From: Anaerotignum sp. MB30-C6 | GTDB taxonomy: Bacteria; Bacillota; Clostridia; Lachnospirales; Anaerotignaceae | DNA: 64,000 bases | Direction: 5' to 3' | Assembly: GCF_030908465.1 (NCBI RefSeq) | Contig: NZ_CP133078.1 | Location: forward strand, 1-64,000 | Part shown: one piece after another, positions 6,795 through 47,499 of the stretch | Layout: the number at the start of each line of letters is the position of its first letter | How positions within the stretch are numbered: the stretch's first letter is position 1 | Notes under the pieces: generated by a model | The model's database searches: none | What the model saw: the letters and a program-made list of their open reading frames with translations, nothing else | What the model was told of the DNA's origin: nothing | Position numbers and translations under genes: made by a program

Positions 6795-9344
6795 ATGAGC
6801 GACGAAATCAGAGAAATAGATAAGGTCGTTTCCATAGATATTAACGAGGAAATGAAAAAATGCTATATCGATTATGCCATGAGCGTAATCGTTTCCCGTG
6901 CATTGCCTGATGTACGAGACGGCTTAAAGCCTGTACAAAGGCGTATTCTTTATTCTATGAGCGAAATGAACTTGGATCCGAATAAGGGCTACCGTAAATC
7001 AGCTCGTATTGTGGGTGATACCATGGGTAAATACCATCCTCATGGTGATGGTTCCATTTATCAGGCAATGGTTCGTATGGCGCAGAACTTTTCTATGCGT
7101 TATATGTTGGTTGATGGTCATGGTAACTTCGGCTCCATCGATGGGTACGGTGCCGCTGCAAGCCGTTATACCGAGGCAAGAATGTCTAAAATTACCGCAG
7201 AATTACTGGCGGATATTGAAAAAGATACCGTTGATTTTATACCAAACTATGATGAAAATGAAAAGGAACCTACGGTTTTACCTGCAAGGATTCCAAACCT
7301 CTTGATAAATGGTTCTTCAGGTATTGCCGTTGGTATGGCAACCAATATACCACCTCATAACTTAACAGAAGTCATTAACGGCGTGGTTTGTATGATTGAT
7401 AATACAATTAACGACGAAGACACGGATATCGAAGATTTGATGGAGCATATCCAAGGCCCTGACTTCCCTACGGGAGCAACAATTCTTGGTAAGAGTGGCG
7501 TTCGTGCAGCGTATCGCACGGGTAGAGGCAAGATTTTAGTACGTGCATTGGCTGAAATTCAGCCTATGGCAAATGGACGTGAAAGAATTGTTGTAACAGA
7601 GCTACCATATGTTGTAAATAAGCTCAGATTGATTGAAAAAATCGCTGATCTTGTCAAAGATAAGCGTATTGAGGGCATTAGTGACCTGTATGATGCTTCA
7701 TCTGGTGACGATATTCAAATTATCATTGAATTGAAAAAAGATGTAAATGCCAATGTTATTTTGAATCAGCTTTATAAATTTACCCAGTTGCAGGAAAGCT
7801 TCGGCGCTATTATGCTTGCCTTGGTAGATGGTAAGCCTGAAGTATTAAACCTGAAGCGTATTATTGAAGAATACTTGAAGCATCAAGAAAACGTTGTGAC
7901 AAGAAGAACACAGTTTAACCTGGATAAGGCAGAAAAGAGAGCTCATATTCTGGAAGGCTTGCGTATTGCAATCAATAATATCGATGAGGTTATACGTATT
8001 ATTCGTACTAGTTATGATAATGCAAAAGAACGCTTGATGGAGCGTTTTTCCCTGTCGGATTTGCAGGCACAGGCAATTTTGGAAATGCAGTTACGTCGTT
8101 TACAAGGCTTAGAGCATGAAAAGATTGATGCTGAATATAAGGATTTAATGGAAAAGATTGCTTATTTCAAGGCTTTATTGGCAGATAGAAAATTAATGTT
8201 GGGCGTCATCAAAGACGAATTATTACAAGTTAGAGATAAATTTGGCGATGAACGTCGTACTCAATTTGTGCAGAACCCTGGAGAAATTGATATTGAGGAT
8301 TTGATTGAGGAAGAAACTTGCGTAATGACCCTTTCTAATCTCAATTATATCAAACGTACACCATTAGATACTTATAAGAGCCAGAATAGAGGCGGTAGAG
8401 GTATTGTTGGTATGCAGACAAGGGAAGAAGACTTTGTAAAAGACATGTTCCTTTCCTCAACCCACGATACGATTTTGTTCTTTACGGATAAGGGACGGGT
8501 ATACCGCATGAAAGGTTACCAAATTCCTGAGGCAGGGAGAACTGCAAGGGGTATGGCCATTGTGAACTTATTGGAAATTGAATCAGGCGAAAATATTACC
8601 GCTATTATTCCAGTGAAAGAGTTTAAAGAAGACGAATATCTTGTTATGATTACTAAGCAGGGTGTGATCAAGAAAACGGAAATGACAAGCTTTGCAAACA
8701 TACGAAAAGGCGGCTTAATTGCCGTAAATTTAAGGGAAGATGACAGCTTAATTTCTGTTATGACAACAAATGGTGAAGATGAAATTTTTGTTGCTACAAG
8801 AAATGGTTTGGGTATCAAATTCTCTGAAAAAGATGTGCGTCCTATGGGGCGTACAGCGACGGGGGTAAAAGCCATTACGCTGCGTAAAGAAGATTATGTT
8901 GTTTCAGCCGTTAAAATCGTCGAAGGGGCGAAAATTCTTAACGTAACAGAAAACGGATTTGGAAAACGTACAGAAACAGATGCTTTTACCGTTCAGTATC
9001 GAGGCGGTAAGGGTATGAAAGTCCATCAATTGACGGATAAAACCGGTCTTTTGACAGGAGTTCTTTTGATTGAAGATAACGAAGAAATTATGTTAATGAC
9101 TTCCGAAGGTATTATTATTCGTTTAAGAGCAAGAGATATCTCAACCATTGGTCGTGTGTCTCAAGGTGTGAAGTTGATAAACCTGAACGATGATGTGACT
9201 GTTGTGGGGATTGCGAAAATCTCTGAGGAGGATATCAAAGACGACGATGAGGAATTGAACGAAGAATTAATAGCAGAAGCTGTAGAAACCGAAGGTGTGG
9301 AAACAGATGAAGTAGAAGTTGAAACACCAACCATAACGGAATAA
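6795..9344 (+). CDS. gyrA: DNA gyrase subunit A
   Basis: GyrA cuts and rejoins DNA in the gyrase tetramer. The 849-residue protein has the winged-helix breakage domain with catalytic Tyr125 in the motif [12 protein letters not shown], a coiled-coil gate region, and a C-terminal beta-pinwheel containing the GyrA-box-like [11 protein letters not shown], ending in an acidic Glu/Asp-rich tail. The quinolone-determining segment reads [17 protein letters not shown]: Gly86 and Gln90 occupy positions equivalent to E. coli Ser83 and Asp87, where Ser/Thr and an acid are usual. GAGGTG precedes the ATG, and a clear terminator follows. Confidence 0.97.
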
Positions 9345-36093: not shown

Positions 36094-36633
36094 TTAGTAA
36101 TTTTGGGAAGCCAAACGGAAGTAGGACTGAGGGTGATCGCATACTGGACATACCTTTGGTGCGTTTTTTCCCACATGTCTATGGCCACAGTTTTCACACT
36201 GCCATACACTTTCTTCATCCTTAGAAAATACCTTGCCTGTTTTCAAGTTTTCCAAAAGCTGGCGGTATCTTTCTTCATGTTCTTTTTCAATCTGGCCTAC
36301 TGCTTCAAACAAATAAGCAATCTGGTCAAAACCTTCTTCTTTTGCTTCTTTTGCGAAATTAGCGTACATGTCGGTCCATTCGTAATTTTCGCCTAAAGCA
36401 GCATCCAACAGGTTTTCTTCTGTGGAGGGAATTGCACCCTCGTGTAATAACTTAAACCAAATTTTAGCGTGTTCCTTTTCGTTGTTTGCTGTTTCTAAGA
36501 AAAGCGCTGCGATTTGTTCATAACCTTCTTTTTTTGCCTTACTTGCATAGTATGTATATTTATTTCTTGCTTGAGATTCACCGGCAAATGCAGACATTAA
36601 ATTTGCCTCTGTTTTAGATCCTTTTAAATTCAT
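36094..36633 (-). CDS. Rubrerythrin
   Basis: Rubrerythrin is a diiron peroxidase that removes hydrogen peroxide using electrons from rubredoxin-type donors. The 179-residue protein has the ferritin-like four-helix domain with the two iron-binding ExxH-type helices ([35 protein letters not shown], and [18 protein letters not shown]) and a C-terminal rubredoxin-like iron site (CENCGH and CPVCDHPQ). It complements the superoxide reductase at 31.5 kb by removing its product. It has a consensus promoter and its own terminator. Confidence 0.95.
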
Positions 36634-36682
36634 AACAACACCTCCGATAAATAATATTTTTAATACCTTCTCTCTTGTAGTT

Positions 36683-36711
36683 ATTATATATTAAATAATA
36701 ACAATTGTCAA
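36683..36711 (-). promoter_or_regulatory. Consensus promoter of rubrerythrin
   Basis: On the minus strand TTGACA (36711-36706), 17-base spacer, TATAAT (36688-36683). Confidence 0.9.
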
Positions 36712-36752
36712 CAAGTAAAAGTTAAAACTTTGTAAATATCTAGAAATATATA

Positions 36753-36783
36753 AAAGAGGTATCTTTTTATAAGATACCTCTTT
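36753..36783 (-). terminator. Terminator of the arg-car operon
   Basis: A perfect 13-bp stem AAAGAGGTATCTT/AAGATACCTCTTT (36753-36765, 36771-36783) with a 5-base loop, just after the carB-dapF stop on the minus strand. Confidence 0.88.
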
Positions 36784-36793
36784 CCTTTATCCT

Positions 36794-39700
36794 TTAAATT
36801 TCGATAAATCCTTCAAAATCCTTGCGGGCATCTCCTGTCATGGTAATCGTATTTTCATCACAATGGATAATTAAATCGCCACCACGCAACTTTACGGTGA
36901 TGTCTTGCTGATCAGGACAATGTCCCAGTGTAACAGCGGCAGCGGCAACGGCGCAAGCCCCAGTACCGCAAGCCCATGTTTCCCCAATGCCCCTTTCCCA
37001 AACACGCATACGCAATGTGGTACGGTCTTCTACGGAGGCAAAGGAGATATTTGCTCTTTCAGGAAAGAACATTGCTTTTTCTAGCAATGGCCCAACCTCT
37101 TCCAAAGGAATATGCTCCACATCCTCTGTAAAAATAACACAGTGGGGGTTGCCCATGGAAAGGCAAGTGATAAAATACTCTTTTCCCCCCAAAGTAACCG
37201 CCTTATGAATGACAGGGGCATCACCCAAAGTAACGGGTACTGACTTTGGTTCGAAATCAGCCTTACCCATGTGTACCAAAACGGAGTAAACTTCATTTTC
37301 ACGTATGAAAAGCTCTAGGTTTTTCACACCATTACCTGTTTCTATGGTTACGTTTTCAGAGGTAATCATTTTCTGATCATAGAGATATTTTGCAACGCAG
37401 CGGATGGGATTTCCTGCAACGGCAGACTCCGTACCATCGGCGTTAAACATCCGCATTTTTGCATGGGCAACGTTAGAAGGTTCAATGAGAACGATACCAT
37501 CACCACCGATACCATTTCGGCGGCTGGAAAGCCAAACGCTTAAAAATTCAGGGTTTTTAATGTCCTGTTCAAAGCAATCAAAGTAGATATAATCGTTGCC
37601 GCTACCCCGCATTTTTGTGAAGTGAAGCTTTTCTTTTTCTCTTGGGAGGTGGGCAATGTCAATCAGCTCCATATTATTGAGATGGAACCCACTAGATAAA
37701 GCATTTACCAAAGCGTTTGTGGTATCAATACTAGTTAGGCAGAAAATTCCACGCTCCGTTGCCTTTCTGCGGATTTTTACGCTGGCAAGCTGAGGCAAAG
37801 TGCTTTTATTGGAAGTGGAAACCATATATTGAATTTTACCGCTTTCCAATAATTCCATAATCGCATCAATACCATCTACCATAGTAGGTAGTTCGGTTAC
37901 AGGAATACCGTATTTTTTCAACTCAAAAGCAGTGCCTTCTGTTGCATACAGTTCAAAGCCCAATTGGTGGAGTTTCCTTGCTGGGTGAACCACTTCAACT
38001 TTATCTCGCTTTTTCACGGTGAGGAATACACCGCCACGCTGTTCCATATGATAGCCTGCCGCCGCCAAACCTTTGTACACAGCCTCATCTAAGGTACGGC
38101 CGATGCCCAAAACTTCTCCCGTAGACTTCATTTCAGGGCCCAGATGTGTGTCTACATCCGTCAATTTTTCAAAGGAGAATACGGGTACTTTTACGGCGGA
38201 GAATAAGGACTGGCGGTACAACCCTGTGCCATAAGGCATATCCTTAAGCTTTTTCCCTAGCATTACCTTTGTGGCAATGTCAACCACGGGCAAGCCTGTT
38301 ACCTTACTGATATAAGGTATGGTTCGGGATGCACGAGGGTTTGCCTCAATGATATAAATTTCGTTTTCAAAAATAACATACTGGATATTTATTAGGCCCT
38401 TTGTTTCCAAAGCCAAGGCAAGCTTTTCTGTGGCTTCAATCAAACGGCGAGTTAATGGCCCACTGAGATTCCAAGCAGGGTATACTGCAATGGAGTCACC
38501 GCTGTGGATACCTGCACGCTCCACATGTTCCATAATACCTGGAATCAGTACAGTTTCACCGTCGCAAATTGCGTCAACTTCCACCTCTGTACCCATCAGG
38601 TACTTATCCACTAAAATAGGGTTTTCAATGCCGCCTTCCAGAATAATATCCATATAACGCTCCACTTCTTCATCGGAAAAGGCGATAATCATATTCTGTC
38701 CACCTAAAACGTAAGAGGGACGCACCAAAACAGGATAGCCCAGTTGATTGGCAGCCTTAAGTGCCTCGGGTTTTGTCATAACACCAAAGCCTTTGGGCCT
38801 TGACATTTTCAACTCTTCAAGAATAGCGTCGAATTTCTCTCTATCCTCGGCGGCATCAATGCTTTCTGCTGATGTGCCTAGGATACGCACCTCCGCCTCA
38901 GATAAAGCTTTGGTGAGTTTGATGGCAGTCTGTCCACCAAAGGCAACCACAACGCCATAAGGCTGTTCTGTCGCAATAATATCCATCACATCCTCGGGGG
39001 TGAGGGGTTCGAAATAAAGGCGATCGGCGGTGTCAAAGTCCGTAGATACCGTTTCCGGATTATTATTCACCATAACCACGTCATAGCCTTCTTCTTTTAA
39101 CGTCCAAACACAGTGCACGGAAGCGTAGTCAAACTCAATTCCTTGGCCAATACGGATGGGGCCAGAGCCGAAAACAATCACCGTTTTCTTGCCATTATTA
39201 TGGGATTCAATGAATTCTGCGGCTTCGTTTTCTGTGTCGTAGGTTGCGTAGAAATAAGGGGTTTGTGCCGCAAATTCCGCAGCACAGGTGTCCACCATTT
39301 TATAAACTGCCCTACGGTGGGGATGAGTTTGTCCTGATAAGGCATAAATAGTCTGATCCAAAAAGCCTACATTTTTTGCCAAAAGATAAAGTTCTTCTGT
39401 TAGGGTTTCCTGTGCAAGGCGTTTCTCCGTTGCTAAAATATTTGTAAGCTTTCCCAAAAACCACTCATCAATCAGGGTAATATCGTGGATTTCTTCAATG
39501 GAAATGCCTCGTTTTAAGGCTTCATAAACCACAAAAAGTCTGCGATCCGTGGTTTCATAAAGCATATCTTTTACTTCCCCATCACTATGGTTAGCCAAAG
39601 TGGTTAAATTCAATGTATTCATGGAGATTTCTGCCCCACGAACGGCTTTTAATAATGCTTGTTCAAAGGTAGGGGCAATTGCCATAACTTCACCAGTGGC

Positions 39701-40831
39701 TTTCATCTGGGTACCAAGCATCCTTTTTGCATAAACAAATTTGTCAAAAGGCCATTTTGGCAGTTTCACTACCACATAGTCTAAGGTTGGCTCAAAGAAT
39801 GCACTTGCTTTCCCTGTGACAGCATTTTCAATTTCCCCAAGGGTAAGGCCAACGGCAATTTGTGCCGCAACTTTTGCAATGGGATAGCCCGTTGCCTTGG
39901 ATGCCAAGGCGGAGGAGCGGGACACACGAGGATTTACTTCAATGACCGCATAGCGGAAGCTTTCAGGGTCTAAGGCAAACTGTACGTTACATCCGCCTTC
40001 TACCTGTAATTCCGTAATAATATCCAAAGCGGCAGTACGGAGCATTTGATACTCCTTATCTGCCAAGGTAACGGCAGGGGCAATGACGATCGAATCCCCT
40101 GTATGCACACCAACGGGGTCAAAGTTTTCCATAGAGCATACGGCAATGACGTTGCCATCCCCATCACGCATCACTTCAAACTCGATTTCTTTCCAACCTG
40201 AAATACACTGTTCCACCAAAATTTGATGGATGGGGGATGCTTCTAAGCCGTTACGGGCAATTTCCAAAAGTTCTGTCTTTGTTTTAGCAATGCCGCCGCC
40301 GCTTCCCCCTAAAGTGAAGGCAGGGCGAACAATGACAGGATAACCGATTTCTTCTGCAAAGGTTAAAGCACTTTGAATATCTGTAACAACCTCCGAGGGG
40401 ATGCAAGGCTGATTTAACTTTTCCATGGTTTCTTTAAATAGCAAACGGTCTTCCGCCTTATCAATGGTTTCCAAACGGGAACCTAATAAAGCAACGGCTT
40501 CCTGTTCCAAAAAGCCTTCTTTGGCCAATTGCATGGACAAAGTTAGACCGTTTTGACCGCCTAACGTGGAAAGTAAGCCATGGGGCTTTTCTTTTTTTAT
40601 AATTCTTTTGATAACGTCAGTTTTCAGGGGTTCGATATAAATTTTATCTGCAATGGCGTTATCCGTCATGATGGTAGCGGGGTTTGGGTTAATCAAAACA
40701 ACTTCTAAACCAAGGGCTTTTAACGCACGGCAAGCTTGGGTGCCTGCGTAGTCGAATTCTGCCGCTTGACCGATTACAATAGGCCCAGAACCAATAATCA
40801 TAACACGTTTTAGATTTTTATTCAGGGGCAT
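36794..40831 (-). CDS. carB: Carbamoyl-phosphate synthase large subunit fused to a DapF-like domain
   Basis: Residues 1 to about 1065 are a complete CarB, which makes carbamoyl phosphate from bicarbonate, ammonia and two ATP for arginine and pyrimidines: two ATP-grasp halves (each starting with an IGSGPIVIGQ / FGSGPIRIGQ motif) and an MGS-like regulatory domain (about 935-1060). In frame, residues 1069-1345 form a diaminopimelate epimerase fold (MRGSGNDYIYFD, RRNGIGGDGIVLIE, SMGNPHCVIF, ETWACGTGACA). The second catalytic cysteine (Cys1288) is present, but the first, normally in MCGNG, is Ala1139 in AVAGNPIRC, so epimerase activity is doubtful. The gene overlaps carA by 14 bases. No stop or frameshift separates the parts. 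Confidence 0.93.
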   Translation of the reverse strand: MPLNKNLKRVMIIGSGPIVIGQAAEFDYAGTQACRALKALGLEVVLINPNPATIMTDNAIADKIYIEPLKTDVIKRIIKKEKPHGLLSTLGGQNGLTLSMQLAKEGFLEQEAVALLGSRLETIDKAEDRLLFKETMEKLNQPCIPSEVVTDIQSALTFAEEIGYPVIVRPAFTLGGSGGGIAKTKTELLEIARNGLEASPIHQILVEQCISGWKEIEFEVMRDGDGNVIAVCSMENFDPVGVHTGDSIVIAPAVTLADKEYQMLRTAALDIITELQVEGGCNVQFALDPESFRYAVIEVNPRVSRSSALASKATGYPIAKVAAQIAVGLTLGEIENAVTGKASAFFEPTLDYVVVKLPKWPFDKFVYAKRMLGTQMKATGEVMAIAPTFEQALLKAVRGAEISMNTLNLTTLANHSDGEVKDMLYETTDRRLFVVYEALKRGISIEEIHDITLIDEWFLGKLTNILATEKRLAQETLTEELYLLAKNVGFLDQTIYALSGQTHPHRRAVYKMVDTCAAEFAAQTPYFYATYDTENEAAEFIESHNNGKKTVIVFGSGPIRIGQGIEFDYASVHCVWTLKEEGYDVVMVNNNPETVSTDFDTADRLYFEPLTPEDVMDIIATEQPYGVVVAFGGQTAIKLTKALSEAEVRILGTSAESIDAAEDREKFDAILEELKMSRPKGFGVMTKPEALKAANQLGYPVLVRPSYVLGGQNMIIAFSDEEVERYMDIILEGGIENPILVDKYLMGTEVEVDAICDGETVLIPGIMEHVERAGIHSGDSIAVYPAWNLSGPLTRRLIEATEKLALALETKGLINIQYVIFENEIYIIEANPRASRTIPYISKVTGLPVVDIATKVMLGKKLKDMPYGTGLYRQSLFSAVKVPVFSFEKLTDVDTHLGPEMKSTGEVLGIGRTLDEAVYKGLAAAGYHMEQRGGVFLTVKKRDKVEVVHPARKLHQLGFELYATEGTAFELKKYGIPVTELPTMVDGIDAIMELLESGKIQYMVSTSNKSTLPQLASVKIRRKATERGIFCLTSIDTTNALVNALSSGFHLNNMELIDIAHLPREKEKLHFTKMRGSGNDYIYFDCFEQDIKNPEFLSVWLSSRRNGIGGDGIVLIEPSNVAHAKMRMFNADGTESAVAGNPIRCVAKYLYDQKMITSENVTIETGNGVKNLELFIRENEVYSVLVHMGKADFEPKSVPVTLGDAPVIHKAVTLGGKEYFITCLSMGNPHCVIFTEDVEHIPLEEVGPLLEKAMFFPERANISFASVEDRTTLRMRVWERGIGETWACGTGACAVAAAAVTLGHCPDQQDITVKLRGGDLIIHCDENTITMTGDARKDFEGFIEI

Positions 40832-41906
40832 TTTCGTTCCCTCCCATCAAAGACATAAATTGGTCAAACAGAAAGTTGGTATCAAGTGGTCCACCACAAG
40901 CTTCAGGGTGAAACTGTACAGAAAAAGCAGGGATATTTATATATTCAACGCCTTCACAAGTATTGTCGTTTACATGGGTAAAAGATAATACCGCGGAAGA
41001 GGGCAGTGTTTCGGAATTAATGGCATAGCCGTGATTTTGGCTTGTAATGTACAATCTGCCCGTAGGCGTGTATCTTACAGGTTGATTTCCGCCACGGTGA
41101 CCGTATTTTAGCTTTGTGCTGGTTGCCCCTTTCGCCAACGCCAAGAGCTGATGTCCAAGGCAAATACCAAAAATAGGAGTTTTGCTTTGGGCAACCTTGC
41201 CGATGTTTTCGATAATGCATTTGTTTTTAGAGGGGTCCCCAGGGCCGTTGGAAAGCAAAATTCCATCAGGGTTCAGCTTTAAAATTTCTTCAGCTGAAGT
41301 ATGGGCGGGAACAACGGTGAGCTTGCATCCTCTTTTAATGAGTTCATCGCCCATATTTTTCTTATAGCCAAAGTCCCAAAGAACCACGTGTTTTTTTCCA
41401 TCAGGATTTTGAACATATGCTTCTTTGCAGGTTACTTTATCCACGCTGCTACTTAAAGCTTGGTTGGCTAGATTTCTAGCAAAACTCTCCATATCCTCGG
41501 GGATCTCATCCACAATAGCGGCGTTCATCACCCCGAATTCACGGATAATCTTTGTTAATGCTCGGGTATCCAAATCACAAAGGCCGATTACTCCCTGTTC
41601 TTCCAAATACTCTGCCAAAGTTCCCTCGCTTCTAAAATTCGAGGGCAAATCACAAATATTTCTTACGATATATGCGGAAAGAGAGGGGCCTTTGCTTTCA
41701 AAATCATGGGGAATGACCCCATAATTTCCAATAAGCGGGAAGGTTTGCACAACAATTTGACCATGATAGCTGGGGTCTGTTACTGTTTCCAAATAGCCTT
41801 CCATTCCTGTTGTAAAAACTAACTCTGCCGTAATTTCTCCCTGTTTCCCAAAACGCTTTGCAGGAAAAACTTTACCGTTTTGCAGAACCAAATATGCTGT
41901 TTTCAT
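40818..41906 (-). CDS. carA: Carbamoyl-phosphate synthase small subunit
   Basis: CarA hydrolyses glutamine and passes ammonia to CarB. The 362-residue protein has the N-terminal CPSase domain (VFTTGMEGYLETVTDPSYHGQIVVQTFPLIGNYG) and a class I glutamine amidotransferase domain with nucleophile Cys in GICLGHQLLALA, the oxyanion motif ILLSNGPGDP and catalytic His/Glu in FHPEACGGP. Its end overlaps carB by 14 bases, and argF ends 16 bases upstream, so all are in one leftward operon. Confidence 0.96.
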   Translation of the reverse strand: MKTAYLVLQNGKVFPAKRFGKQGEITAELVFTTGMEGYLETVTDPSYHGQIVVQTFPLIGNYGVIPHDFESKGPSLSAYIVRNICDLPSNFRSEGTLAEYLEEQGVIGLCDLDTRALTKIIREFGVMNAAIVDEIPEDMESFARNLANQALSSSVDKVTCKEAYVQNPDGKKHVVLWDFGYKKNMGDELIKRGCKLTVVPAHTSAEEILKLNPDGILLSNGPGDPSKNKCIIENIGKVAQSKTPIFGICLGHQLLALAKGATSTKLKYGHRGGNQPVRYTPTGRLYITSQNHGYAINSETLPSSAVLSFTHVNDNTCEGVEYINIPAFSVQFHPEACGGPLDTNFLFDQFMSLMGGNENAPE

Positions 41907-41922
41907 CGGGTTTCACATCCTA

Positions 41923-42828
41923 TCAGCCCATTAAATTTACAAGAATTGCCTTCTGTGCATGGAGACGGTTTTCTGCCTCATCAAAAATTTCGTCGGCATG
42001 TGCTTCAAAAACTTCAGCGGTAATTTCTTCTCCTCTATGGGCAGGCAAGCAGTGCTGCACCATACAGCCTTTGTTAGTGAGTGCCATTAAATCATCATTA
42101 ATTTGATAGCCGTCAAAGGCTTTGGCACGAATTGCCTGTTCTTCTTCCTGTCCCATGGATGCCCAAACATCTGTTATGATTACATCCGCATTGTTTGCTG
42201 CAACTTTGGGGTCATCGGTAAGGATAAAGTCATCACCGTATTCTTTGGCAAAATCCAAAATTGTGGGATCAGGTCTGTATCCTTGGGGGCAAGCAACGCT
42301 TACCGTCATACCCACCTTTAAACCGCCAACGATTAAGGAGTTAGCCATATTATTCCCATCGCCGATGTAACACATTTTAAGGCCTTCTAATTTGCCCTTA
42401 TGCTCACGAATGGTTTGCAAATCTGCCATAACCTGACAAGGGTGGCAAAAGTCTGTTAAGCCGTTAATAATGGGAATAGAGCCGTACTTTGCAAGGATTT
42501 CCACTGTCTCTTGTTCAAAAGTACGAATCATAATTCCGTCCAGATAGCGGGAGAGAACACGAGCAGTGTCTTCGGTTGGCTCTCCACGGCCAATTTGTGC
42601 ATCCTTAGAGCTGATGAAAAGGGCATGGCCGCCCAACTGATACATTCCTGTTTCGAAGGATACACGGGTACGGGTTGAAGATTTTTCAAAAATCATGCCC
42701 AAGGTTTTTCCTTTGAGAAAATGATGTTCTTTGCCTTCTTTTACATATTTTTTTAACTGATCTGCCAAGTCTAAAAGTTCAATAATTTCTTCCTTTGTAT
42801 AATCTAACAGCTTTAAAAAATGCTTCAT
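41923..42828 (-). CDS. argF: Ornithine carbamoyltransferase
   Basis: OTCase joins carbamoyl phosphate and ornithine to give citrulline. The 301-residue protein has the carbamoyl-phosphate motif SSTRTRVSFE, a second phosphate-binding region with HPCQVMADL, the ornithine loop VWASMGQEEE and the HCLP motif (VQHCLPAHRGEE). Length is normal. GAGAGG precedes the ATG. It uses the product of the two genes immediately downstream, and a small pair of microhairpins separates it from argD. Confidence 0.96.
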   Translation of the reverse strand: MKHFLKLLDYTKEEIIELLDLADQLKKYVKEGKEHHFLKGKTLGMIFEKSSTRTRVSFETGMYQLGGHALFISSKDAQIGRGEPTEDTARVLSRYLDGIMIRTFEQETVEILAKYGSIPIINGLTDFCHPCQVMADLQTIREHKGKLEGLKMCYIGDGNNMANSLIVGGLKVGMTVSVACPQGYRPDPTILDFAKEYGDDFILTDDPKVAANNADVIITDVWASMGQEEEQAIRAKAFDGYQINDDLMALTNKGCMVQHCLPAHRGEEITAEVFEAHADEIFDEAENRLHAQKAILVNLMG

Positions 42829-42935: not shown

Positions 42936-44120
42936 TTACATACTTTTCAGAACATCTGCCAGTATGGTAAGCCCTTTTTCCAACTCTTTTCTTGTAATGG
43001 TAAGAGGAGGTAAAAGTCTGACTTTAGTTTTTGCAGAAAGTATCATTAAGCCGTTATCTAAACATTTTCGAATAACCTCTTTTGCATCCACATCAAGGCT
43101 TACACCAAGCATCATGCCCATACCTGCCACATCTGTTACATGGGGCATAGAGGAGATTTCTTTTTTTAGAAAGTCACCTTTCTTTTTAATTTCAGCCAGA
43201 AAGTTTTCGTCCAAACGATTTAAAATTTCCAAAGAACCGGCACAAACAACGGGATTTCCGCCGAAGGTAGACCCATGATCCCCAGCACCTAGGCAGCCTT
43301 CTGTTTTTTCGCCAAACAATACGCCGCCAATGGGTAAACCGCCTCCAAGACCCTTTGCACAGGAAACCAAATCCGGTTGAATATCAAATTGCTGGTAGCT
43401 AAAGAAAGAACCTGTTCTGCCGATGCCTGTTTGTACTTCGTCTACAATAAAAAGGATATCCTTTTCCTTACAAGCTTCAAAAACAGCTTTTACATACTTT
43501 TTATCTAAAGGAAGAACGCCACCTTCCCCCTGAACCATTTCCATAAAAACGGCACAAACATCATCTGTTAATTTAGAAAGGGTGTCCTCCAAATTATTGG
43601 CTTTTGCAAATACGAAACCGTCTACAAAGGGGAAGAAATAGTTGTGGTAAGTCTCCTGACCAGTTGCAGATAGGGTAGCCATGGTTCTGCCGTGGAAGGA
43701 ATTTTCCAAAGCCACCATGGTGCTTCTACCTGTTCCGTACTTGGTAAAACTGTATTTTCTCGCCGCTTTGATCACACCTTCGTTTGCCTCGGCACCGCTA
43801 TTGGAAAAGAACATTTTTTTCATACCGCTTTTTTCACAAACTAGTTTTGCAACCTCTATGGAAGGAGTTGTGTAATATAGGTTTGAGGTGTGCTGTAATT
43901 TATGAAGTTGGGCGGTAATGGCATCAACCCAGCCCTTGTCGCAAAAACCTAGGGCATTTACACCAATACCGCTGGTCATATCGATATATTCTTTGCCGTC
44001 AGTATCATAGCAAGTGGCGTTTTTTCCGTGGTCTAAGACAACGGGGTAACGTCCGTAGGTATGCATGATATATTCATGGTCTTTTTGTTTGATTGTTTCA
44101 AAGCTCACTTGGCTCACCAT
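42936..44120 (-). CDS. argD: Acetylornithine aminotransferase
   Basis: A class III PLP-dependent transaminase that converts N-acetylglutamate semialdehyde to N-acetylornithine. The 394-residue protein shows MTSGIGVNALGFCDKGWV, FSNSGAEANEGVIKAARKY, SFHGRTMATLSATGQ, VDEVQTGIGRTGSFF and the PLP lysine in VSCAKGLGGGLPIG. The first ATG at 44120 lies almost on top of an AAAAGG site; a GTG at 44108 (giving MSFETIKQ) may be the real start. The gap to argB is 282 bases, unusually long within the operon, and filled by repeats. Confidence 0.95.
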   Translation of the reverse strand: MVSQVSFETIKQKDHEYIMHTYGRYPVVLDHGKNATCYDTDGKEYIDMTSGIGVNALGFCDKGWVDAITAQLHKLQHTSNLYYTTPSIEVAKLVCEKSGMKKMFFSNSGAEANEGVIKAARKYSFTKYGTGRSTMVALENSFHGRTMATLSATGQETYHNYFFPFVDGFVFAKANNLEDTLSKLTDDVCAVFMEMVQGEGGVLPLDKKYVKAVFEACKEKDILFIVDEVQTGIGRTGSFFSYQQFDIQPDLVSCAKGLGGGLPIGGVLFGEKTEGCLGAGDHGSTFGGNPVVCAGSLEILNRLDENFLAEIKKKGDFLKKEISSMPHVTDVAGMGMMLGVSLDVDAKEVIRKCLDNGLMILSAKTKVRLLPPLTITRKELEKGLTILADVLKSM

Positions 44121-44402: not shown

Positions 44403-45260
44403 TTATTTAATAAACATGGTACCGATACCCTCGTCGGAAAACATCTCAATGAGAATGGAGTGCTCGATTCTCCCGTCAATCATAACTGCCTTTTCTACGC
44501 CTGAAAGAACGGATTTTTCCAGGCTTTTCACCTTTGGTATCATGCCTCCGCTTATGATTCCATGGCTGATTAATCGCTCCACTTCATCCATTTTTACAAC
44601 GGGAATCAAAGAGTCTTCGTCTTCTATATTTCCCATTAACCCTCGTATATCCGTCAGGGTTATAATATTTTCCGCTTTTAAGGCCGCCGCAATTTCCGCC
44701 GCCGCTGTATCCGCATTGATGTTGTAGGTCTGCCCCTTGCAGTCCGTTCCCACAGTGGCAATCACGGGGATATACCCACTTTCAATCGCTTGGGTAATGG
44801 GCTCAGTATTAATATTCGTAATTTCCCCTACAAAACCGTAGTTACCTTCAATTTTTTTGGCTTTAATCATGCCTCCGTCAATGCCACAAAGACCAATGGC
44901 TTTTCCCCCTAGTTGACCAATGAGGGAAACCAAATCTTTGTTGGTTTTACCTGCCAATACCATCTGCACCACCTGGGCTGTTTCTGCATCGGTATAGCGT
45001 AGGCCATCTACAAAATGAGAGGGGATATCTAATTTTTTAAGCATCCCGCTGATTTCAGGCCCTCCACCATGTACCAGTACCACATGAATGCCTACTAAGG
45101 AAAGCAAAATAATATCGCTCATCACTGCCTTTTTCAAATCAGGGTGAATCATGGCGTTCCCGCCGTATTTTACGACAACGGTCTTGCCTGTGTATTTCTG
45201 TATGTATGGTAAAGCAGCGGTCAATACGTTAGCCTTTATGGTGTTAGAATCTGTAATCAT
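44403..45260 (-). CDS. argB: Acetylglutamate kinase
   Basis: ArgB phosphorylates N-acetylglutamate. The 285-residue amino-acid kinase has the N-terminal VVKYGGNAM, LVHGGGPEISGML, the substrate-binding RYTDAETAQVVQMVLAGKTNKDLVSLI, INADTAAAEIAAALKAENIITLTDI and a closing region SDEGIGTMF. A few residues before Lys of the VVKYGGNAM motif, an N-terminal helix (LTAALPYIQKYTGK) may be the one that mediates hexamer formation and arginine inhibition in many bacteria. GGGAGG precedes the ATG; argJ is 16 bases upstream. Confidence 0.97.
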   Translation of the reverse strand: MITDSNTIKANVLTAALPYIQKYTGKTVVVKYGGNAMIHPDLKKAVMSDIILLSLVGIHVVLVHGGGPEISGMLKKLDIPSHFVDGLRYTDAETAQVVQMVLAGKTNKDLVSLIGQLGGKAIGLCGIDGGMIKAKKIEGNYGFVGEITNINTEPITQAIESGYIPVIATVGTDCKGQTYNINADTAAAEIAAALKAENIITLTDIRGLMGNIEDEDSLIPVVKMDEVERLISHGIISGGMIPKVKSLEKSVLSGVEKAVMIDGRIEHSILIEMFSDEGIGTMFIK

Positions 45261-45276: not shown

Positions 45277-46491
45277 TCAGGTACGGTAGTCTCCGTTGAT
45301 TTTCACATAATCATAAGTCAAGTCGCATCCCCATGCTGTTGCCACAGCAGTGCCTTGGTTCATTTCCACTTGAACATGAACTTCCTCTTCTAAAAGAACA
45401 GCTTTTGCCACTTCCTCATCAAATGCTACACCAGCGCCCTTTTCGCAAACTTGAATGGTGCCCTTTGCCGAGGAAATATCTACGGAAATGGTGTCTACGG
45501 AAAAATCCCCCTCCGTATAGCCGATGGCACAAAGGATACGCCCCCAGTTAGCATCCGCACCAAACATAGCGGACTTTACCAAGCTTGAGGTGATGATGGA
45601 TTTTGCAATGGACTTTGCTAAAGGGGTGTTGGGTGCACCGCTTACGGTACACTCCAAAAGTTTTGTAGCCCCTTCGCCATCTCCTGCAATTTGCTTTGCC
45701 ATGGAAGTACAAATTTCTTTAACTACTGTCAGGAAAGCTTGGAATTCGGGGCCTTCTTGATTAATAACAGGATTTTCTGCCATGCCGTTTGCCATGATAG
45801 AAACCATATCGTTGGTAGAGGTGTCGCCGTCAACGCTAACCATATTGAAAGTATCATCCACTGCTAATTTTAAAGCTTTTTGTAGCATAGGTATGGTAAT
45901 TGCCGCATCAGTGGTTAAAAATCCAAGCATGGTTGCCATGTTGGGGTGAATCATGCCGCTACCTTTGGCCATTGCCCCAATGGTAACGGTTTTTCCACCA
46001 ATTTCAATGGTATAGGCTTCTTCCTTTGCCTTGGTGTCTGTGGTCATAATTGCCTCTGCCGCCAAAGATGAACCGCTTTCTGTCAGTTGTGGTGCTAGTT
46101 CCTTAATGCCCTTGGCAATGGGCTCTAAGAGTAATACTGCACCGATTACGCCAGTGGAAGCAATGATAATATCCTTAGGAGAAAGACCAAGGGCGTCCGC
46201 TGTCATTTGACACATTGCCTCTGCTTTTTCCACACCGTCGGCATTGCAAGTATTGGCATTACCGCTGTTGCAAATCATAGCCTGTGCCATACCATCTGCA
46301 ATATTTTCTTTTGTAACAGTAATGGGTGCTCCATAAACCTTGTTTTGTGTATAAACAGCAGCCGCGGTACAAGGGGTTTGACTATAAATCATGGCCAAGT
46401 CCTTTTTATCCTGATTTCCACGGATTCCACAGTGGATTCCGCCGGCTAGAAAGCCCTTTGGGGTGGTGACACCCCCTGAAATTTTCTGCAT
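45277..46491 (-). CDS. argJ: Glutamate N-acetyltransferase / ornithine acetyltransferase
   Basis: ArgJ recycles the acetyl group from acetylornithine to glutamate. The 404-residue precursor contains the autocleavage segment KGSGMIHPNMATMLGF, where the Thr after Ala becomes the nucleophile of the beta chain. Other typical segments are CNSGNANTCNADG, ASTGVIG and DGDTSTNDMV. Whether it is bifunctional (also using acetyl-CoA) cannot be told by sequence alone; no argA is in the operon. GGAGGA precedes the ATG; argC is 14 bases upstream. Confidence 0.97.
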   Translation of the reverse strand: MQKISGGVTTPKGFLAGGIHCGIRGNQDKKDLAMIYSQTPCTAAAVYTQNKVYGAPITVTKENIADGMAQAMICNSGNANTCNADGVEKAEAMCQMTADALGLSPKDIIIASTGVIGAVLLLEPIAKGIKELAPQLTESGSSLAAEAIMTTDTKAKEEAYTIEIGGKTVTIGAMAKGSGMIHPNMATMLGFLTTDAAITIPMLQKALKLAVDDTFNMVSVDGDTSTNDMVSIMANGMAENPVINQEGPEFQAFLTVVKEICTSMAKQIAGDGEGATKLLECTVSGAPNTPLAKSIAKSIITSSLVKSAMFGADANWGRILCAIGYTEGDFSVDTISVDISSAKGTIQVCEKGAGVAFDEEVAKAVLLEEEVHVQVEMNQGTAVATAWGCDLTYDYVKINGDYRT

Positions 46492-46505: not shown

Positions 46506-47435
46506 TTATTCCAACCCTTGGGTCTCATTCAGACCTAGCACAATATTCATATTCTGTACAGCGGCACCAGAAGCACCTTTCCCCAAATTATCAAATACGC
46601 TGATGAGGGTCATTCGTTCATCATTGCCTTCTAAGTAAAGGGTAAGACCGTTGTTGTTTGCCATGGTATTTGATGCCAAAAAGCCTGTTTCTTCTTGGGC
46701 AAATGTGATGAAACTTGAATCTTTATAAAAATCTTTTAGTAATTCTGTTAGTTCCGCTTTTGTTACCTTTTTCAAAAAAAGGTTGCTATGTAGAGGAATG
46801 CAGGTTTCCATGCCACAATAAAAATCGCAAACAATCGGGGATAAAACGGGGGGAGCGGAAATTCCCGTCACATACTGCATTTCCGGTAAATGTTTATGGG
46901 TTTGGCTTAAGCCATATTGTCTGGGGCTTTCATATGCCAATGGTCTATGGGTTTCTTCATATTCTTGAATCATGCCCTTTCCGCCACCGCTATACCCCGT
47001 AATGCTATGGGCACTAAAAGGATAGTCGGGACTTATAATGCCCAGCTTTACCAAAGGATAGGCCCCCGCAATAAAGCCTGTGGCGTGACAGCCTGGGTTT
47101 GCAATTCGCTTGGAGACTGCAATTTCCTGTCTGTGTTCTTGGGAAAGTTCTGGAAAACCGTAAGTCCAAAGGGGATTGGTTCTATGGGCTGTGCTGGCAT
47201 CTATAATGCAGACATTAGGGTTTTCAACCAGTTTTACTGCCTCTTTAGCCGCCTCATCGGGTAAGCAAAGAAACACAACGTCAGAACGATTTATAAGTCT
47301 TTTTCTTTCAGCTTCATCTTTTCTTAGCTCTTCGCTGATTAATAATAATTCAATATTGGGATGATGCTCTAGCCGTTGGCGTAGTTGTAAGCCAGTGGTA
47401 CCAGCCTGACCATCTATGTAAACTTTATACTTCAT
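46506..47435 (-). CDS. argC: N-acetyl-gamma-glutamyl-phosphate reductase, type 2
   Basis: ArgC reduces acetylglutamyl phosphate to the semialdehyde with NADPH. At 309 residues, with IDGQAGTTGLQLRQRL at the N terminus, DASTAHRT and catalytic Cys in ANPGCHATGFIAGA, it belongs to the short type 2 branch, not the 345-residue type 1 common in Firmicutes arg operons. GYSGGGKGMIQEYEE and the closing VFDNLGKGASGAAVQNMNI are typical. It is the first gene of the leftward arginine operon, with its promoter 37-64 bases upstream of the ATG. Confidence 0.95.
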   Translation of the reverse strand: MKYKVYIDGQAGTTGLQLRQRLEHHPNIELLLISEELRKDEAERKRLINRSDVVFLCLPDEAAKEAVKLVENPNVCIIDASTAHRTNPLWTYGFPELSQEHRQEIAVSKRIANPGCHATGFIAGAYPLVKLGIISPDYPFSAHSITGYSGGGKGMIQEYEETHRPLAYESPRQYGLSQTHKHLPEMQYVTGISAPPVLSPIVCDFYCGMETCIPLHSNLFLKKVTKAELTELLKDFYKDSSFITFAQEETGFLASNTMANNNGLTLYLEGNDERMTLISVFDNLGKGASGAAVQNMNIVLGLNETQGLE

Positions 47436-47471: not shown

Positions 47472-47499
47472 ATTATAAACCTTTAAAATAGAAAGTCAA
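47472..47499 (-). promoter_or_regulatory. Promoter of the argC-carB operon
   Basis: On the minus strand TTGACT (47499-47494), 16-base spacer, TATAAT (47477-47472). Just upstream lies ATGCATAATTATACA (about 47507-47521), an AT-rich partial palindrome loosely like an ArgR box; regulation by arginine is plausible but unproven. Confidence 0.75.

Follow-up and report, generated by a model that had tools for sequence, protein, structure and literature searches.

What is a diaminopimelate (DAP) epimerase domain doing at the end of an arginine operon, joined to the large subunit of carbamoyl-phosphate synthetase? The question is raised by a single gene, carB::dapF, in the window examined here (64,000 nucleotides of Anaerotignum sp. 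MB30-C6, contig NZ_CP133078.1). On balance, we favor the explanation that the gene encodes an arginine-operon CarB with a C-terminal DapF domain, that it was fused from neighboring genes, that a catalytic cysteine of the domain has been lost repeatedly, and that the window's copy of the domain has become a pseudo-epimerase, retained as a module that binds a ligand, regulates or stabilizes the synthetase. CarB makes the carbamoyl phosphate used for arginine and pyrimidines, DapF belongs to cell-wall and lysine synthesis, and both are known families; what appears to be new is their fusion, how widely it occurs and the recurrent loss of the catalytic cysteine, none of which was found in the literature searched. 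As the original prediction had supposed, no CarB-DapF protein is described in the open-access literature searched, a body that leaves most subscription papers outside it. A reconstruction of gut amino-acid metabolism, examined for DapF, CarB and fusion, makes no mention of a CarB-DapF fusion in the parts consulted (PMC9026213).

The fused gene and its protein

The gene and its parts are as follows.

36794-40831, minus strand: carB::dapF fusion gene, 1345 amino acids (open frame, translation, NCBIfam and Pfam domains)
37697-40831, minus strand: CarB part, residues 1-1045, with two ATP-grasp halves, an oligomerization domain and an MGS-like allosteric domain at residues 947-1033 (domain profiles)
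37622-37696, minus strand: end of CarB and linker, residues 1046-1070, containing LPREKEKLH (sequence)
36797-37621, minus strand: DapF part, residues 1071-1345, a complete DapF fold (TIGR00652, AlphaFold2 model, PDB match)

The frame runs from 40831 to 36794, opening with ATG and closing with TAA, and its 1345 translated codons hold no internal stop, while frame 1 of the plus strand over the same interval is broken by stops throughout. Residues 1-1047 constitute the carbamoyl-phosphate synthetase large subunit and are followed by a short linker and the DapF fold at residues 1070-1343. Both parts score well above their NCBIfam cut-offs, with 1403.7 bits against 1027 for CPSaseII_lrg (TIGR01369, residues 4-1045) and 249.5 bits against 114.65 for DapF (TIGR00652, residues 1070-1343), confirming the one uninterrupted 1345-residue frame of CarB and DapF that had been proposed from the DNA. 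No model for a fused CarB-DapF protein is present among the best 25 of the 42 NCBIfam matches. The strand, a second DapF and a second CarB in the genome, and the lost first cysteine were not part of the original prediction.

The AlphaFold2 model of the fused DapF part shows the whole DapF fold (mean pLDDT 94.4). Its closest solved structure is 9mro_A (Z 40.9, rmsd 1.4, 271 aligned), and its top two matches in the PDB, 9mro (Z 40.9) and 3ejx (Z 39.2), are both DapF crystallized with DAP analogues. A 798-residue model of two domains is confident overall (pLDDT 86.1, pTM 0.83) and supports no claim about an interface.

Distribution of the fusion

The CarB-DapF fusion is real. It is present in all eight sampled genomes of the genus (G000-G007; the G002 copy is interrupted by a contig end inside CarB), and its presence in these eight, together with its occurrence in many genera, rules out a sequencing artefact or chance. 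Separate genes in close relatives, which had been named beforehand as evidence that would speak against the fusion, are absent from the eight genomes, as is any sign of a recent fission; separate adjacent genes occur only in more distant relatives.

The search across Clostridia that the original prediction had called for found the fusion at each level. Many anaerobic Clostridia carry it, with at least 31 of the 392 genomes sampled from the order, at least 57 of 391 from the class and at least 19 of 398 from the phylum (the samples overlap, and the counts are lower bounds). The set analyzed below comprises 104 in-frame fusions from 62 genera and 41 families (genus and family by group codes), made up of 31 fusions and 73 of 75 further fetched loci, with G433 and G653, which have separate adjacent genes, excluded. 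In a scan of named genomes, the best 80 of 567 confirmed loci were all fused in one frame (80/80). Cultured species with the fusion include Ruminococcus albus KH2T6 (L211), Ruminococcus sp. FC2018 (L193) and Sporobacter termitidis DSM 10068 (L246). Fusions are also seen on contigs labelled as Treponema or Spirochaetaceae metagenome-assembled genomes (L206, L228 and L249), reflecting either horizontal transfer or wrong binning.

Loss of a catalytic cysteine and retention of the DAP pocket

Catalysis by DapF uses two cysteines. The positions in the window that correspond to these cysteines and to the residues in contact with DAP, numbered in parentheses after Haemophilus influenzae DapF, are given below.

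37415-37417, minus strand: residue 1139, Ala at the first catalytic cysteine (Cys73) (alignments; A over C against 2otn_A)
36968-36970, minus strand: residue 1288, second catalytic cysteine (Cys217), kept (alignments)
36992-37444, minus strand: kept DAP-contact residues N1130, N1228, N1261, E1279 and R1280 (N64, N157, N190, E208 and R209) (alignments)

Alanine occupies the first-cysteine position in all eight members of the genus. When the first cysteine of Corynebacterium glutamicum DapF is changed to alanine (C83A), the enzyme is almost inactive (PMC5296763, in part), which strongly implies that epimerase activity has been lost from the fused domain of the window. As the Cys73 equivalent is Ala1139, the domain is not classed here as a DAP epimerase. 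Roles of the DAP-contact residues are described for solved DapF structures (PMC8225329 and PMC5296763, excerpts).

Among the 104 fusions, the first cysteine is C in 47, A in 31, G in 17 and S in 9, and is thus lost in 57, and the second is C in 94, S in 5, A in 4 and N in 1. The second cysteine is kept in 48 of the 57 fusions that lack the first, and both are lost in nine. When the two cysteine columns are left out, a tree of the 104 fusions shows 15 changes in the state of the first cysteine, 13 of which are forced by well-supported branches. The DAP-contact residues are kept at nearly every site (N64 in 103 fusions, N157 in 102, N190 in 98, E208 in 102 and R209 in 100), and the same is true of the 57 fusions without the first cysteine (57, 56, 52, 56 and 54, respectively), 51 of which retain all five. 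Four loci (L185, L206, L236 and L217) were excluded from the modelling alignments.

Stand-alone DapF proteins have C at both cysteine positions in 50 of 51 cases. The exception (L085; G217:C107, 2441-3268) has Asp and Asn replacing the catalytic cysteines; its genome encodes an intact DapF as well, and no carB was found within the 2 kb fetched. Additional DapF copies near fused genes were observed at G868:C62 (L158 and L169), where about 8 kb separates a fused DapF from a stand-alone copy about 53% identical to the DapF of the window, and at L236, where a second DapF-like frame (7250-8110) follows the fused gene on the same contig, with pyrG after it.

The disabled fused DapF is not decaying in the genus, where its sequence changes at a lower rate than that of the intact stand-alone DapF. 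Across seven species (21 pairs; G006 was excluded as more distant), pairwise nonsynonymous divergence (dN) is lowest in the CarB part (0.035), intermediate in the fused DapF (0.059) and highest in the stand-alone DapF (0.111). Median ratios of nonsynonymous to synonymous divergence (dN/dS) in the same species are 0.039, 0.041 and 0.080, respectively, though dN is the safer figure because synonymous sites are near saturation.

Probable origin from neighboring genes

In a CarB tree of 72 proteins (42 fused and 30 unfused), all 42 fused proteins fall in one supported clade, inside which there are three unfused CarB (G496, G443 and the second CarB of G127), and two changes between the fused and unfused states are needed. 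The unfused sister G496 has separate carA, carB, dapF and pyrG genes. Its carB ends with VDINTL and a stop, at the point where fusion linkers begin, and the 47-nt spacer between carB and dapF contains an AAGGAGG site.

DapL acts at the step just before DapF, and its product, LL-DAP, is the substrate of DapF. The fused gene is followed by dapL in the order carA-carB::dapF-dapL (L193), and at L045 a glutamine-synthetase-like gene and one more gene precede carA-carB::dapF-pyrG-dapL. In a different CarB clade, unfused carA-carB-dapF-dapL is found in G433 and G437, and unfused carB-dapF-dapL occurs in G653, where the CarB fragment is too short to be placed in the tree. The carAB-dapF-dapL neighborhood at these three loci (L251, L252 and L262 in G433, G653 and G437) recurs beyond the fusion.

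Given the unfused sister and the dapL genes downstream of fused genes, fusion of operon neighbors would be the simplest origin. The unfused relatives and the gene order suggest that carB and dapF adjoined each other in a carA-carB-dapF-(pyrG)-dapL cluster and became fused by loss of the stop and spacer, perhaps once. The earlier view that no metabolic channel links CarB and DapF holds in that they share no reaction. However, it overlooks that the fused gene clusters with dapL elsewhere and that separate carA-carB-dapF-dapL and carA-carB-dapF-pyrG clusters exist.

Two states of the fused domain

The earliest fusions would have been bifunctional, and many appear to be so still, as judged from their residues, their gene order and the absence of other DapF genes. 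A dapL gene lies downstream on the same strand at 31 of 69 loci with the first cysteine versus 0 of 30 loci without it (p 1e-6; kinship ignored), and within 400 nt at 14 of 69 versus 0 of 30. Of the 110 loci considered, eight had too little downstream sequence and three had an unread cysteine state (including L170 and L171, elsewhere read as S and A); a locus was scored as having no dapL on only 1.5 kb of downstream sequence, and some positives lie farther. The nine loci at which argF could be seen (six from the genus itself, plus L057, L170 and L171) are all without the first cysteine.

Another DapF is found in the genome for 43 of the 57 fusions without the first cysteine and for 14 of the 47 with it. 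The enzyme Ddh, a meso-DAP dehydrogenase, was also looked for (in genomes other than G004 and G007). A Fisher test of sole route to meso-DAP against cysteine state gives p 0.07 for all genomes and p 0.05 for those at least 90% complete. Seven genomes at least 90% complete have neither another DapF nor Ddh; six of these keep both cysteines, and in the seventh (G730) the first cysteine is kept, the second is lost and the domain is diverged. Some fusions, such as that of G052, are probably the only epimerase of the cell. Several genomes gave no DapF other than a fused domain with both cysteines, and for this reason it is most likely a working epimerase there and not a regulator.

In 42 of 107 loci that keep the first cysteine and in 10 of 69 that have lost it (180 of 186 loci parsed, four with unread state; the sets overlap and kinship is ignored), the linker carries an in-frame ATG immediately ahead of the DapF core, frequently with an AGGAG-like site before it. 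Linkers of this kind, commoner where the first cysteine is kept, include those of L101, L106, L108 and L245. The internal ATG may release free DapF from the fusion gene in other lineages. Production of a separate DapF by internal translation is rejected for the window, whose linker contains no internal ATG in the six codons preceding the DapF core.

The two states also differ in the allosteric domain of CarB, at the following position of the window.

37883-37885, minus strand: residue 983, an MGS-domain Thr; Lys in 81 of 104 fusions (alignment)

Of the fusions without the first cysteine, 22 of 56 (one more is gapped) have another residue in place of this KIHE-motif lysine, a UMP-site residue in Escherichia coli; none of the 47 that keep the cysteine do.

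Role of the fused domain in the window

The CarB part resembles other members of TIGR01369 in having all CarB domains, a score above the cut-off and an adjoining carA, but differs from them in its C-terminal DapF domain and, within the genus, in the change of the MGS lysine to threonine. Similarly, the DapF part resembles DapF (TIGR00652; EC 5.1.1.7) in its full fold, its DAP-contact residues and its second cysteine, and is 26-41% identical to the solved DapF structures listed. Unlike these, it has Ala for the first catalytic cysteine, is fused to CarB and is encoded in an arginine operon, with lysine genes not adjacent.

Because the domain is conserved and its ligand pocket is kept although an ordinary epimerase is unlikely, the DapF part of the window would most likely be a ligand-binding or stabilizing module of the synthetase. 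The aligned sequences show that the first catalytic cysteine was lost many times, the genus of the window included, while the residues that hold DAP and strong purifying selection persisted. This combination of a lost catalytic residue and strong conservation suggests that the DapF of the genus became a sensor or regulator. The original prediction of a regulatory or assembly module thus fits this genus, but is not suited to genomes in which a fused domain with both cysteines is the sole DapF.

In mechanistic terms, the window's DapF would be a pseudo-epimerase that was retained by the synthetase. Its ability to bind DAP or a similar diamino acid has probably persisted, and the closing of its cleft would be transmitted to the adjoining allosteric MGS domain. 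DAP binding, the identity of the ligand and the effect on carbamoyl phosphate are all inferred here. A regulatory role has precedent, since DapF closes around DAP (PMC5296763, in part) and E. coli DapF(C73&217A) still binds and activates RppH (PMC4227774, in part). The E. coli DapF-RppH pair (PDB 6d13) likewise involves a DapF fold that acts on another enzyme without needing its cysteines, but there DapF is a separate protein, bound non-covalently to a different partner, and an effect on CarB in the present case is putative. A more specific and tentative proposal, for which the odds are lower, is that the domain is a diaminopimelate sensor: the pseudo-epimerase would bind DAP and, via the MGS domain, match carbamoyl-phosphate production for arginine to the status of the cell-wall and lysine pool, an arrangement that would have evolved several times from bifunctional ancestors. 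The replacement of the MGS lysine only in fusions without the first cysteine supports this proposal, as if nucleotide control had been dropped.

Several observations weigh against these interpretations. Pocket damage is seen in 6 of the 57 fusions without the first cysteine, and pocket conservation and low dN could also stem from folding or dimerization needs. Another DapF or Ddh is present for 54 of these 57 fusions, but also for 37 of the 47 that keep the cysteine, and three fusions that lost it are in genomes where neither was found (G487, G518 and G753; 65, 65 and 88% complete). In a comparison of independent pairs, the association between cysteine loss and another DapF is not significant (6.3 pairs for and 1.1 against, median p 0.125), and the associations with dapL and with the MGS lysine are counts that ignore kinship. 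As for origin, a DapF tree of 31 fused and 51 stand-alone proteins needs five changes between the two states, and supported branches force three of these, which is evidence against a single clean fusion; refusion, fission or exchange of the DapF part may have occurred.

Among the other explanations, a purely structural or assembly role, in which the inactive DapF domain stabilizes or oligomerizes the synthetase and binds no ligand, survives best, although it is considerably less probable than the explanation favored here. The complete fold and the strong constraint on a domain without its catalytic cysteine are consistent with such a role, as are the contact-based action of E. coli DapF on RppH, even without both cysteines (PMC4227774, in part), and the dimeric state of C. 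glutamicum DapF (PMC5296763, in part), a fold that dimerizes in known DapF enzymes. However, a scaffold would have no need of the five DAP-contact residues kept in 51 of 57 fusions without the first cysteine.

It is rather improbable that the domain catalyzes another reaction, using the remaining cysteine for one-base chemistry (exchange, elimination or slow epimerization) on a diamino acid. The prevalence of the second cysteine in fusions that lack the first (48 of 57) would fit this, and relatives with the DapF fold act on other substrates. One example is O-ureidoserine racemase (7vdy), with which the window domain shares its fold (Z 37.3, rmsd 1.8, 272 aligned), but the window domain, judged by its own residues, keeps those for the distal carboxylate of DAP and lacks the first catalytic cysteine. 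The substrate of this racemase is citrulline-like. Against catalysis stand the near-inactivity of the C83A enzyme of C. glutamicum (PMC5296763, in part), the absence of both cysteines in 9 of the 57 fusions, and the variable replacement (A, G or S), which is unlike a chosen catalytic residue.

Still less probable is a decaying remnant, in which the fused domain is retained since the gene cannot easily shed it. Repeated loss of the catalytic cysteine and wider damage in a few fusions (G693 and G730) would be expected of such a remnant, but its dN is about half that of the intact stand-alone DapF of the same seven species, the pocket residues are mostly retained, and none of the eight genus members has a truncated DapF part. 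That the window's domain is a normal, functional DAP epimerase attached through an accident of the operon is very improbable, though residues and gene order make this likely for many other fusions: at residue 1139 the catalytic Cys is replaced by Ala, as in all eight genus members, each of which also has an intact stand-alone DapF.

The arginine operon and genome context

The fusion gene is the last of the operon argC-argJ-argB-argD-argF-carA-carB::dapF, and profile matches bear out its predicted place at the end of an arginine operon.

40818-41906, minus strand: carA, overlapping carB::dapF by 14 nt (TIGR01368, 433.2 bits against a cut-off of 307.35)
41923-42828, minus strand: argF, ornithine carbamoyltransferase (profile match)
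42936-44120, minus strand: argD, acetylornithine aminotransferase (profile match)
44403-45260, minus strand: argB, acetylglutamate kinase (profile match)
45277-46491, minus strand: argJ (profile match)
46506-47435, minus strand: argC, TIGR01851 type (profile match)
47472-47499, minus strand: promoter-like site, 11/12, upstream of argC (consensus match only)
36752-36784, minus strand: terminator-like hairpin directly 3' of carB::dapF (consensus match only)

Promoter-like sites in the region show no excess (22, versus a mean of 23.5 in shuffles), and terminator-like hairpins number 17, versus a shuffle mean of 14.1. At gathering thresholds, Rfam found only two tRNAs in the window and no RNA regulator before the operon. 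The next gene after the operon encodes a rubrerythrin (36094-36711) and is preceded by a 12/12 promoter-like site (36711-36683, minus strand).

The stand-alone DapF of this genome lies at G000:C1:577.6-578.4 kb, between genes for an M16 peptidase and an HflX-like GTPase, ruling out that the fused copy is the sole DapF of the cell, which is plausible elsewhere. In addition, a second CarB is encoded at C1:652 kb by a 1061-residue frame with 49% identity to the fused CarB.

Implications

The domain architecture is widespread, is found in cultured species and belongs to an enzyme that serves as a textbook case of allostery. If each of these domains were annotated as DapF, a functional DAP epimerase would be wrongly assigned to some genomes. 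The fusions offer a natural series from bifunctional enzyme to pseudoenzyme, in which the role of a fused inactive enzyme domain is directly testable. If the domain is indeed a DAP sensor, it would provide a direct allosteric link from peptidoglycan precursors to carbamoyl phosphate.

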